Of a stretch of 64,000 bases of DNA, positions 1 to 50,179 are shown one piece after another. The position numbers were made by a program, and so were the translations under genes. Below the pieces are notes generated by a model. The model worked only from the letters and a program-made list of their open reading frames with translations, was not told the origin of the DNA and ran no database searches. The DNA is from Mycobacteroides chelonae. GTDB taxonomy: Bacteria; Actinomycetota; Actinomycetes; Mycobacteriales; Mycobacteriaceae. The DNA lies in the NCBI RefSeq assembly GCF_016767715.1, contig NZ_CP050145.1:682001-746000 (forward strand), written 5' to 3'. Position 1 is the stretch's first letter. Each line of letters opens with the position of its first letter.

Positions 1-810
1 GAGACATTGCGGGTCAATCCGCGCCTTGCCGTACATGAGGGGCCCGGTGGCGAGCTCAGGTATATCGTCTTCAATCTCAAGACCATGCCGGGCGGCACGG
101 ATGCCCAGAAGCTCGCCGTCCGCAAGGCAGTGTCCTCGTTGGTCGACCGTGAAGCACTGTCCCGCAACGTGTACAAGGGAATCTATACCCCGGCCTATTC
201 GGTGGTGCCGGACTCCATGGCAGGTGCTACCGAATCATTCAAGACGCTCTATGGGGCCAAACCCAACGTAGATTTGGCTCGAAGGTTCTTGTCCGATGCC
301 AAGGTTTCAGTCCCGGTGCTGATTAATCTGCAGTACAACCCGGATCATTACGGCAGCAATTCATCGGAGGAGTACGCGGCGGTCAAGGGACAACTCGAGT
401 CGTCCGGCCTTTTTCGGGTCGACTTGCAGTCGACAGAGTGGGTCGCCTACCAGGAGAGGCGGTCATCGGACTCGTATCCCGTATATCAGTTCGGTTGGTT
501 TCCCGATTTCCCCGATCCTGACAACTATCTGACGCCATTCTTCATGCCGGACAACATGGTCGTGAACCATTTCGAGAACGACACCATCACGCGGCTCATC
601 ACCGCCGAGGCCACCGAACCTGACCGGGCCAAGCGCCTGAGCATCATCGGCCAGATCCAGGACATGATGGCACGGGACCACATTTCGACGCTGCCGCTGC
701 TGACTGGGAAACAGATTGCGGTGTCGGTGAAGAATGTCGACGGGATCAAGCTCGGCCCCTCATTCAAATTCCAGTTCACTCCGCTGAAGAAGACAGGCAG
801 CGCCGCATGA
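1..810 (+). CDS. ABC transporter substrate-binding protein, family 5 (3' part only)
   Basis: C-terminal part of an extracellular solute-binding protein of the dipeptide/oligopeptide family (SBP_bac_5). The frame is open to the first base, so the signal peptide, lipobox and N-terminal lobe lie outside the window. The PDFPDPDNYLTPFF stretch and the closing basic segment are typical of this family, which captures peptides or similar solutes outside the membrane and hands them to the permeases. The TGA overlaps the next ATG by 4 bp (ATGA), so it is translationally coupled to the permease genes. The substrate cannot be told from this fragment. Confidence 0.85.
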   Translation, partial: ETLRVNPRLAVHEGPGGELRYIVFNLKTMPGGTDAQKLAVRKAVSSLVDREALSRNVYKGIYTPAYSVVPDSMAGATESFKTLYGAKPNVDLARRFLSDAKVSVPVLINLQYNPDHYGSNSSEEYAAVKGQLESSGLFRVDLQSTEWVAYQERRSSDSYPVYQFGWFPDFPDPDNYLTPFFMPDNMVVNHFENDTITRLITAEATEPDRAKRLSIIGQIQDMMARDHISTLPLLTGKQIAVSVKNVDGIKLGPSFKFQFTPLKKTGSAA

Positions 811-13242: not shown

Positions 13243-14103
13243 ATGGCGGTAGCGGTGCTGGTCACACTCGACGGTGAAGTGCACGACCCGACGGTGCCGT
13301 TGTTGTATGCCGATGAGCTCGCCGCCGTTCGTGGCGATGGCGCGTTCGAGACGCTGTTGGTGCGGGGCGGTGTCGTCTGCAAGCTGGAGGCGCATCTGGA
13401 CCGGATGGCCGCGTCGGCCGCAGCGATGGATCTATCCGAACCTGATCGGCCCGCCTGGCGCACGGCGGTAGAGATTGGTGTGCGGCAATGGAACTCGACA
13501 TCAAGCGCGGATGCGATGCTACGCCTGGTGTACACCCGTGGGCGTGAAAGTGGCGGGGGTGCAACGGCATATCTGACCATCGCGCCGGTGCCCGAGCGGT
13601 CGCTGCTGGCGCGTCGCGATGGCGTCTCGGTGATCACCCTGGATCGTGGGCTGCCCGCGCAGCCCGCCGATCCGCTGCCCTGGTTGCTGTCGGGGGCCAA
13701 GACATTGTCCTACGCAGTCAACATGTCCGCCCTGCGGTACGCCGAAACTCAAGGGGCTCAGGACGTCATCTTCGTCAGTTCGGACGGATTCGTGCTGGAG
13801 GGCCCACGCTCGACGGTCATCGTGGACACCGGTGACGCACTGGTCACCCCTTTTCCGGAGCACGGAATCTTGCACGGAACCACTCAGCGTGCGCTCTTCG
13901 AAGTGGCTGCGGCCGAGGGCATCCCATGCCGGTACGAGGCCGTGAAGCCCGCTGATCTAGTTGCCGCCCAAGATGTTTGGATGCTGGCCAGCATCACGCT
14001 TGCGGCCCGGGTGCGTACGCTCGACGGTGCCGACCGTCCCGCGGGGCCGCTGGCGGCGCGGCTGCCCGAGCTGGTCGACAAGGCCATCACGCTCGAGTTC
14101 TGA
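13243..14103 (+). CDS. pabC: Aminodeoxychorismate lyase, class IV aminotransferase fold
   Basis: 286 aa PLP enzyme. The fold-type IV pattern is seen in RGDGAFETLLVRGG near the start and in SGAKTLSYAVNMSALRYA, which provides the PLP-site lysine. EGPRSTVIV lies in the cofactor-binding half. PabC converts 4-amino-4-deoxychorismate to p-aminobenzoate and pyruvate for folate synthesis; a branched-chain or D-amino-acid transaminase of the same fold cannot be excluded. The ATG at 13243 is preferred because the frame upstream overlaps the divergent ygfZ start. Corresponds to Rv0812. Confidence 0.82.
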   Translation: MAVAVLVTLDGEVHDPTVPLLYADELAAVRGDGAFETLLVRGGVVCKLEAHLDRMAASAAAMDLSEPDRPAWRTAVEIGVRQWNSTSSADAMLRLVYTRGRESGGGATAYLTIAPVPERSLLARRDGVSVITLDRGLPAQPADPLPWLLSGAKTLSYAVNMSALRYAETQGAQDVIFVSSDGFVLEGPRSTVIVDTGDALVTPFPEHGILHGTTQRALFEVAAAEGIPCRYEAVKPADLVAAQDVWMLASITLAARVRTLDGADRPAGPLAARLPELVDKAITLEF

Positions 14104-14135: not shown

Positions 14136-14164
14136 TTGTCGCACACGCTCTTGCGTCGTACCGT
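14136..14164 (+). promoter_or_regulatory. SigA-type promoter of the orphan micro-gene
   Basis: TTGTCG (14136-14141) and TACCGT (14159-14164) are separated by exactly 17 bp, a good fit to a housekeeping -35/-10 pair. It starts 33 bp after the pabC stop and would begin transcription near 14171, just before a perfect Shine-Dalgarno. Predicted from spacing only. Confidence 0.5.
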
Positions 14165-14198
14165 CGTCGGTACACAAGGAAGGAGGTGGTCCGACAAA

Positions 14199-14237
14199 TT
14201 GATTGCTTATTGGACATGTGAGGTGGCTGCTCGCTAG
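14199..14237 (+). CDS. Putative 12-residue micro-peptide with perfect Shine-Dalgarno
   Basis: TTG start and TAG stop enclose 12 codons translating to (M)IAYWTCEVAAR. AAGGAGGT at 14180-14187 is a full match to the anti-Shine-Dalgarno, 11 nt before the TTG. The segment from promoter to hairpins looks like an independent transcription unit: no plus-strand gene follows it, because nitrobindin is encoded on the other strand. Alternatively the reading frame is a leader whose translation controls folding of the hairpins at 14222-14350. I do not recognise a named family. Confidence 0.5.
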   Translation: MIAYWTCEVAAR

Positions 14238-14350
14238 CTGCAGCCATGTGCTGCGGTGGGCAAATCCACGGCAGCCACCCGGCCCCCGAACCCTCGATTA
14301 GTCCGATCGAGCCGAACGGTTCGGGGGCCGCCCCCTTTTCTGGGGCGGCC
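14222..14350 (+). ncRNA. Structured 3' region of the micro-gene: three hairpins, two mutually exclusive
   Basis: Hairpin 1 pairs GGTGGCTGC (14222-14230) with GCAGCCACC (14271-14279). Hairpin 2 pairs GGCCCCCGAACC (14281-14292) with GGTTCGGGGGCC (14318-14329) and is extended inside by CTCGAT (14293-14298) with ATCGAG (14306-14311). Hairpin 3 pairs GGCCGCCCC (14326-14334) with GGGGCGGCC (14342-14350) around the loop CTTTTCT. All stems are perfect. Hairpins 2 and 3 share bases 14326-14329, so they compete at the base, an attenuator-like layout. The left half of hairpin 1 overlaps the micro-ORF. It could be a terminator, a regulatory RNA, or both. Confidence 0.5.
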
Positions 14351-35406: not shown

Positions 35407-36411
35407 TTAGACGCTGACCGCTTCCCTGGCTGCCTTGGCGGCGTTGCGTTCGGCGCGTTTGGCCTGGCGCTCCAGGTACTTGGCTTTGACTTCCTCGAAG
35501 TCTTCGGAGGTCTTCCTGAGGTCACCGATGATGCGTTCGACACCCTCGCGGTACTCGTCGCCCTCGCCGTTGATGTCGTCACGATCGAAGATGCGCCACT
35601 TGCGCAGCACCGGCAGCACCACCTCGTCGAGGTGTGACTGCGGGTCGTAGACGCCGCCGGTGGCGATGGTGACCGCGTTACGGCGGAAGCCCGGAATCGT
35701 GTAGCCGGGCATCTTGAAGTTGTCGAGCACCCGGAAGATGGACTTCATGGCCTGGTTCGGGGCGATCTTGAGACCGGCCTCGACCATGTTGCGGTAGAAG
35801 ATCATGTGCAGGTTCTCGTCGGTGGAGATGCGCTTGAGCAGCTCATCGGCGATGGGCTCGGCGCAGGCCTTGCCGGTGTTGCGGTGCGAGACGCGGGTGG
35901 CCAGCTCCTGGAACGTCACGTACACCACCGAGTCGAACAGGCTCTCGGCGAAGAGTTCCTCGCCGCCCTGGCGGTTCTGGCCGGGGGAGAATCCGCGGGT
36001 CATCTGCTCCACGCGCAGCTTCTCGAGTTCGAACGGGTCCACCGAACGGGTGACCACCAGGTAGTCGCGGATGGCGATACCGTGCCGGTTTTCCTCGGCG
36101 GTCCACCGGTTCACCCAGGTGCCCCACGGTCCGTCCATGGTGAAGTTCATGGCGATCTCGCGGTGATACGAGGGCAGGTTGTCCTCGGTCAGCAGGTTCG
36201 TGATCATGGCGACCTTGGCCACCTCGGAGAGCTTGGACTGCTCAGGATCCCAGTCCTGACCACCTAGAGCCTTGTAGTTCTTGCCCTCAGACCAGGGGAC
36301 ATAGTCATGCGGGTTCCAGTCCTTGGTGACGCCGAGGTGGCGATGGACATTCTCCTCGACCACGGGCTCAAGCTCATGGAGCAGCTCCAGGTCGGTGAAT
36401 TCCTTCTGCAT
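35407..36411 (-). CDS. desA1: Acyl-ACP desaturase DesA1
   Basis: 334 aa soluble di-iron desaturase. Both metal-ligand motifs are visible: EENRHG in the first pair and DENLHM in the second, with further Glu ligands between. DesA1 introduces a double bond in the mero-chain during mycolic acid synthesis and is essential in M. smegmatis. The 212-bp upstream region carries several ATCTGTA-like direct repeats that may be regulator sites. The basic C-terminal tail is Ala/Lys/Arg-rich. Confidence 0.93.
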   Translation of the reverse strand: MQKEFTDLELLHELEPVVEENVHRHLGVTKDWNPHDYVPWSEGKNYKALGGQDWDPEQSKLSEVAKVAMITNLLTEDNLPSYHREIAMNFTMDGPWGTWVNRWTAEENRHGIAIRDYLVVTRSVDPFELEKLRVEQMTRGFSPGQNRQGGEELFAESLFDSVVYVTFQELATRVSHRNTGKACAEPIADELLKRISTDENLHMIFYRNMVEAGLKIAPNQAMKSIFRVLDNFKMPGYTIPGFRRNAVTIATGGVYDPQSHLDEVVLPVLRKWRIFDRDDINGEGDEYREGVERIIGDLRKTSEDFEEVKAKYLERQAKRAERNAAKAAREAVSV

Positions 36412-49680: not shown

Positions 49681-49753
49681 TGCCCCCACCAGGGCTCGAA
49701 CCTGGGACCTGCGGATTAAAAGTCCGTAGCTCTACCAACTGAGCTATAGGGGC
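49681..49753 (-). tRNA. tRNA-Lys (anticodon UUU)
   Basis: 73 nt; 7-bp acceptor stem GCCCCTA with TGGGGGC, anticodon loop CTTTTAA (UUU), TTCGA in the T-loop. Discriminator A is followed by genomic CCA (49678-49680). Confidence 0.95.
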
Positions 49754-49892
49754 GCGGAGAGACAGGATACTGGTTGGCTCACCACGCGAGCACCGTGGTT
49801 ATCCGGTTTGGGTTCTGGGGAGGTTGTGCCCTAAGCTAAGCGAGCTCCCAACGCGACAAGCGTTGTGGGTACCCCGGAGAGATTCGGAATGG

Positions 49893-49965
49893 GCCCCCAT
49901 CGTCTAGTGGCCTAGGACGCCGCCCTTTCACGGCGGTAGCACGGGTTCGAATCCCGTTGGGGGTA
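49893..49965 (+). tRNA. tRNA-Glu (anticodon UUC)
   Basis: 73 nt, GCCCCCA acceptor, anticodon loop CTTTCAC (UUC), T-loop GGTTCGAATCC, discriminator A. First of three plus-strand tRNA genes likely in one transcript. Confidence 0.95.
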
Positions 49966-49994
49966 CGCAACCAGTCATGCTGGGAGCAGAGTAA

Positions 49995-50068
49995 GGCCCT
50001 GTGGCGCAGTTGGTTAGCGCGCCGCCCTGTCACGGCGGAGGTCGCGGGTTCGAGTCCCGTCAGGGTCG
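49995..50068 (+). tRNA. tRNA-Asp (anticodon GUC)
   Basis: 74 nt, GGCCCTG acceptor paired with CAGGGTC, anticodon loop CTGTCAC (GUC), discriminator G with genomic CCA. It lies 29 bp after tRNA-Glu. Confidence 0.95.
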
Positions 50069-50105
50069 CCAGTACGGCGAGGCAGTATCTGTGGATCTGC
50101 CGTCC

Positions 50106-50179
50106 GGCCAGGTAGCTCAGTTGGTACGAGCGTCCGCCTGAAAAGCGGAAGGTCGCCGGTTCGATCCCGGCCCTGGCCA
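50106..50179 (+). tRNA. tRNA-Phe (anticodon GAA)
   Basis: 74 nt, GGCCAGG acceptor with CCTGGCC, anticodon loop CTGAAAA (GAA), discriminator A, genomic CCA. The restriction endonuclease gene ends 22 bp beyond it, so this may be an integration point of the R-M genes. I found no repeat of the tRNA 3' end elsewhere in the window. Confidence 0.95.

Follow-up and report, generated by a model that had tools for sequence, protein, structure and literature searches.

The window analysed here is a 64,000-nucleotide stretch of the Mycobacteroides chelonae genome, in which positions 14172-14336 of the forward strand form the local copy of the Rfam family RF02471 (Ms_IGR-5); a covariance-model search matched the locus over model positions 1-184 with 158.1 bits, compared to a curated cut-off of 45 bits. 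The locus is a small structured RNA belonging to an actinobacterial sRNA family, and the description "orphan" given to it in the initial annotation is therefore incorrect. A gene for a pabC-like aminotransferase of class IV (PF01063) lies upstream on the same strand (13243..14103), and a nitrobindin-like gene (PF08768; 14401..15018, reverse strand) converges from the other side, leaving no same-strand gene downstream, as originally noted.

The RNA is preceded by a predicted promoter, with a -35 hexamer TTGTCG (14136-14141) and a -10 hexamer TACCGT (14159-14164) separated by a 17-nt spacer, from which the RNA would be transcribed. The initial annotation had placed a promoter here, and its form is widely kept: of 182 non-identical copies, among them the window's own, 161 have TTGnnn-16..18-TAnnnT no more than 45 nt upstream, compared to 1.2 in shuffles. 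Relatives of the RNA are reported as transcripts in M. smegmatis (PMC10454040), S. lividans (PMC8079986) and S. avermitilis (PMC8780764). Ribosome-protected reads on Ms_IGR-5 are likewise reported for M. abscessus and M. smegmatis, with the caveat, in the same paper, that such reads occur on many ncRNAs (PMC4974804). No description of a function for Ms_IGR-5 was found in the literature searched.

The 5' UTR of the M. tuberculosis nitrobindin gene, Rv0813c, contains a predicted membrane smORF according to one report (PMC11133741), at the opposite end of the gene from the Ms_IGR-5 RNA. Elsewhere in the window, positions 36026-36093 (forward strand) match Rfam RF01781 (ASdes TB sRNA) with 77 bits (cut-off 40), and four tRNA genes, one of them on the other strand, are clustered at 49681-50179.

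Distribution and genomic context

In a sample of 201 genomes from the window's family, RF02471 was found in 150, with 134 scoring above the cut-off; in a sample of 394 from its class, which overlaps with the first, it was found in 249, with 247 above. From these, 107 loci were read, comprising the best 30 family-draw matches, 17 further best class-draw matches and 60 chosen for diversity, with the window's own copy among them. The set of 182 non-identical RNAs consists of these loci and 75 from named species, one of which (L196) is a spirochaete; for the 75, the search pattern itself demanded codons 8-9 of the reading frame described below and part of the Shine-Dalgarno (SD) sequence.

Sequence patterns and two models of 65 nt extended the search. 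With a strict pattern of SD and ORF core, matches were obtained in 13 of 296 genomes sampled across the phylum, with one copy each and all within the class, while the reversed pattern gave no matches in the same 296 genomes. A looser pattern, run over the genomes of named species, found at least 120 stretches and, among the matches listed, one in a record titled Spirochaetia (L196). The first model, which covers the initial 65 nt of the RNA and was built from 46 sequences, matched 10 of 247 genomes sampled from the spirochaete phylum of L196. The second, to which the spirochaete loci had been added, gave matches in 128 of 296 Actinomycetota genomes; by our own tally, these include 109 of the 270 genomes that lie outside the class. 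Its E-values are rough and approach 1e-3 for the weakest matches. Fifty loci outside the class were read, namely 40 of the 109 Actinomycetota matches and all 10 spirochaete matches; copies outside the class fall mostly below the RF02471 cut-off. In the spirochaete loci, which range from 28 to 66% G+C, the SD is accompanied by a short frame, GAGGTG and a hairpin, with a T-run after the hairpin in most of them, and by eye TTGAC lies upstream in seven of the ten. Relatives of the RNA thus occur both in Actinomycetota and in a phylum of spirochaetes.

Absence and variation were also seen. The second model likewise found nothing in twenty genomes that lack an Rfam match, including three from the window's genus, in a run made without a positive control; the double absence suggests that these genomes have lost the RNA. 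Copies from three genera of the window's family (L048-L056) are short forms, with matches of about 130-150 nt and a different leader, and several of them have a local hairpin over the stop codon. A phage origin was considered and rejected, as the six viral contigs containing the pattern are chance matches. One unverified and unannotated record titled 'Bacteriophage sp.' (MT835602.1; L244, 3001-3065) holds a full copy of the 5' domain, read as MISDRTCEVARR, and is perhaps misassigned bacterial DNA. Among plasmids, the pattern was found in one Nocardia record; searches with the spirochaete version gave no match in plasmids (L250) or in phages (L249).

The genes around the RNA differ from lineage to lineage. 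Across the 107 loci, a convergent nitrobindin gene lies downstream in 51, a pabC-like gene is present in 27 and a YgfZ-like gene in 32, and 46 loci have none of the three in the stretch examined. Where nitrobindin is missing, the next gene varies in both kind and strand. The ten spirochaete loci share no downstream ORF of at least 90 aa (one, L253, has almost no downstream sequence), and upstream genes are common to three of them. Because its neighbours vary in this way, the RNA looks like a free-standing unit with its own promoter.

Predicted ribosome-binding motifs and reading frame

The strong SD of the initial annotation, AAGGAGGT at 14180-14187, is part of a longer complementarity, AAGGAGGTGGTCC at 14180-14192, and the full motif AGGAAGGAGGTGGTCC (14177..14192) could base-pair along the entire 16-nt 3' tail of the 16S RNA. 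The core of this motif, AAGGAGGTGRTCC, occurs only twice in the 5.06 Mb genome, at this locus and antisense to the 16S 3' end. When pairing with the window's 16S tail GGAUCACCUCCUUUCU was scored with G-U allowed, all 16 nt could pair in 157 of the 182 RNAs, fifteen in 22, fourteen in one and only three in two. The SD contains a first GAGGTG, located 8-10 nt ahead of the start codon in 172 of 174 RNAs. A second, SD-like GAGGTG forms codons 8-9 (14220..14225) and stands 9 nt ahead of the stop in all 182; these two codons are invariant throughout the set, though the search pattern demanded them in 75.

The 12-codon ORF described at the outset runs from a TTG start at 14199 to a TAG stop at 14235-14237 (14199..14237, forward strand; MIAYWTCEVAAR), and its frame is conserved across relatives. 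In 105 of the 107 loci a canonical start (ATG 34, GTG 8, TTG 63) precedes the stop by 12 codons, or by 11 in three loci; the remaining two, inspected by eye, have ATT and CTG at the position of the 12-codon start. Every locus has an in-frame stop (TAG 93, TGA 8, TAA 6). The rule used favours the 12-codon start where several are available; taking the first start instead gave the same lengths in the 91 loci parsed. TTG, the most frequent of these starts, initiates weakly and is usually rare in this role, and starts like it are of the kind that IF3 discriminates against.

The looser pattern provides a fairer test of the frame, since it required neither a start nor a stop. After two of its stretches (L172 and L224) were set aside as chance matches in coding sequence, all 118 true copies among the matches listed had an in-frame start and stop. 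The stop always came five codons from the GAG codon on, and ATG, GTG or TTG stood exactly 12 codons before it in 114 copies; the other four had ATG at 11, 13, 13 and 14. Outside the class, 37 of 50 loci (27 Actinomycetota, 10 spirochaete) had a canonical start and an in-frame stop, compared to a mean of 2.8 and a maximum of 8 in shuffled sequences. With near-cognate starts admitted the count was 50 of 50, against 7.0 (maximum 13), although it includes two loci of doubtful frame, L316 and L318, for which the rule gave a spurious ACG frame. By eye, an ATA start is possible in both, as it is in L319; all three lack the GAC motif and the leader pairing P0 described below, and their membership in the family is doubtful. 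Several loci outside the class have CTG, ATT or ATC at the start position, codons likewise of the kind that IF3 disfavours.

Pairings within the RNA

In the Rfam consensus, as read here, the first 13 nt have no partner and the SD is paired to codons 10-11; the Rfam text consulted describes an sRNA and makes no mention of an ORF. Comparison of the copies supports four pairings beyond this consensus, designated P0, P1, P2 and a pseudoknot. Together with the hairpin P2b over the stop (14233-14235 with 14259-14261 and 14237-14244 with 14250-14257, within 14233..14261), which is in the consensus, they would take up most of codons 5-12.

P0 would join CACA of the leader (14173..14176) to UGUG (14217..14220), which comprises codon 7 and the first base of codon 8. 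Across the 182 RNAs, leader and partner read ACAC/GTG in 155, ACGC/GCG in 16 and ACGC/GTG in 2, with another leader in 9, and the adjacent pair is Watson-Crick in 139 of 173, compared to 84 in shuffles (0 of 5000 as high). None of 1000 permutations reached the observed pairing, either in the 182-RNA set (4.14 vs 3.77) or outside the class (4.25 vs 3.26), with the proviso that the permutation tests for pairings take no account of relatedness. Outside the class, versions range from CCAG/CTGG to CCGAGG/CCTCGG and CGTGAG/CTCACG. Inspected by eye, 37 of the 40 Actinomycetota loci have P0, but it is clear in only 4 of the 10 spirochaete loci.

P1 is the pairing of GTCC at the end of the SD (14189..14192) with GGAC of codons 5-6 (14212..14215), and can form, with G-U allowed, in 104 of the 107 loci. 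When P0 and P1 were scored jointly on the 46 aligned sequences, 96.6% of cells paired, compared to 52.2% for the best slid arrangement, and 19 cells had changed on both sides (5.7 in shuffles, 0 of 500 as high). Two of the five covariation measures did not exceed shuffles, namely the number of pairs so changed (3; 238/500) and the number of pair types (8; 263/500).

The same GGAC could instead pair with GTCC (14301..14304) in the loop of P3, a long, G+C-rich, terminator-like hairpin (14280..14330), forming the pseudoknot. P1 and the pseudoknot are mutually exclusive, as both use these bases. In the 166 RNAs scored (12 without P3 by the rule and 4 without RTCC were left out), ORF and loop read GGAC/GTCC in 151, GGAT/ATCC in 10, GGAT/GTCC in 3 and GGAC/ATCC in 2, and the adjoining pair is Watson-Crick in 83, compared to 48 in shuffles (0 of 5000). 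Outside the class, where 47 of the 50 loci could be tested, own partners formed 6.17 bp and swapped partners 5.52 (0 of 1000). Within the class, an unanchored version of the test gave a weak result (6.13 for own and 6.01 for swapped partners, with 20 of 200 permutations as high).

P2 corresponds to the first of three stems in the initial annotation, all of which lie where they were placed. Its 10 bp (14222-14231 with 14270-14279) connect codons 8-11 to the strand before the terminator-like hairpin; its own score of 9.08 of 10 exceeds the permuted value of 8.40 (0 of 1000), and two-sided changes occur at six positions. The earlier suggestion that translation of the overlapping ORF would open this stem thus gains from its covariation. 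The second stem (14281-14292 with 14318-14329) belongs to P3. The third (14326-14334 with 14342-14350) does share 14326-14329 with the second, but it is local: of 170 copies scored, only the window's own and one other have a 9-bp stem at that place, and competition between the two stems is not supported as the switch. In sum, the comparison with other genomes proposed in the initial annotation found the ORF, SD, promoter and main stems conserved, with covariation in P0, P2 and the pseudoknot.

Between P2b and the 3' strand of P2 lies a single-stranded linker (14262-14269) in which (G)AAUCC recurs in both phyla by eye (also in L014, L249 and L280); it is a possible binding site.

Possible roles of the RNA

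There are several potential explanations for a conserved 12-codon frame within a structured RNA. The initial annotation offered a self-contained micropeptide or RNA gene, and the promoter, SD and frame it relied on are all supported. A micropeptide with a function of its own, encoded by a small mRNA or by a dual-function sRNA, would account for the preservation of start, stop and length, and both phyla show a recurring T-x-E-V core, so some selection on the peptide is possible. Codon 6 (Thr, ACN) also varies most at its third position. However, the other eight of the nine variable codons show no excess of third-position variation (182 RNAs), Thr gives way to Met or Ile where GGAC becomes GGAT, and in L309 and L310 the frame differs relative to GAGGTG while start and stop still agree. 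The core residues, moreover, coincide with bases of P0, P1/pseudoknot and P2. The amino acids thus appear largely to follow constraints on the RNA, the peptide being mostly not conserved while the frame is kept, and a functional micropeptide is considered unlikely. SgrS and RNAIII are dual-function regulatory RNAs that likewise contain a short ORF; their peptides are functional, whereas that of Ms_IGR-5 is mostly not conserved. It is also possible, if rather unlikely, that the RNA is a trans-acting, base-pairing sRNA whose ORF tunes stability or frees a seed. The family is filed as sRNA, and C-rich unpaired stretches are available, including the linker seen by eye. However, where the ORF has GGAT the P3 loop tends to have ATCC, and such joint change would be expected if the loop pairs in cis, not if it serves as a seed in trans.

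Two further readings are much less probable. The CreT RNA toxins of haloarchaea are small RNAs with a mini-ORF, a stem-loop and, in one type, a strong SD, and are reported to act through translation components (PMC8501985). A similar RNA trapping a tRNA through rare codons would fit the resemblance and the A+T-rich codons 2-4 (69%, compared to 29% in the flanks). Yet these codons vary, TTA, AGA or ATA (counted singly) occurs among them in only 51 of 182 copies, there is no general rare-codon pair, fold and organisms differ, and CreT has an efficient AUG where most copies here have TTG; tRNA trapping was rejected as a general mechanism on the rare-codon count, and a CreT-like role is very improbable. 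A leader or attenuator for a downstream gene, or the remnant of one, is nearly excluded. A short ORF does overlap exclusive pairings ahead of a terminator-like hairpin, but nitrobindin is convergent where kept, the next gene otherwise varies, the spirochaete loci have no common downstream gene, and the terminator competition of stems 2 and 3 is not conserved; the remnant reading of the initial annotation also sits poorly with a conserved promoter.

The reading preferred here, at a little under an even chance, is a free-standing Ms_IGR-5 RNA whose 12-codon frame is probably translated to open the fold, and which would act via ribosomes and not via its peptide. It is preferred because an extreme SD, weak starts and a largely peptide-independent frame are kept together, and because helices that translation would open are kept in the same free-standing unit; that the frame persists while the peptide changes likewise makes it likely that the RNA engages ribosomes rather than makes a peptide. 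P0, with P1 or the pseudoknot, would present the SD in a closed loop, where the 16S tail could bind it. An initiating ribosome would then disrupt P1 or the pseudoknot, an elongating one P0 and P2, and the second SD-like motif may delay its departure from the stop. Holding or sensing of ribosomes would be the most likely output. 6S RNA, a structured RNA that occupies RNA polymerase by mimicking its ligand, offers an analogy only, with the ribosome as the proposed partner of Ms_IGR-5. The RNA also resembles tmRNA, which likewise stands alone, is pseudoknotted and contains a short reading frame closed by a stop of its own; unlike tmRNA, it has its own SD and start, and no tRNA-like part was noticed.

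A more specific proposal is tentative and may well prove wrong: Ms_IGR-5 could represent a new RNA regulator, a pseudoknotted stand-alone mini-mRNA of Actinomycetota and a spirochaete phylum in which a 16S-tail antisense in a closed loop captures small subunits and a peptide-independent 12-codon frame serves as the release switch, making it a ribosome counterpart of 6S RNA. A widespread family filed as non-coding sRNA carries an apparently ancient reading frame and covarying, mutually exclusive pairings, along with the only full anti-16S core in the genome outside the antisense of the 16S gene itself. The consensus structure and range of RF02471 can now be revised and, regardless of the reading adopted, the start codon, the peptide and each helix can be changed separately. 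Should the RNA indeed hold or sense ribosomes, translation would have its own equivalent of 6S RNA, and the matching of ribosomes to growth in actinobacteria and some spirochaetes could be approached through it.
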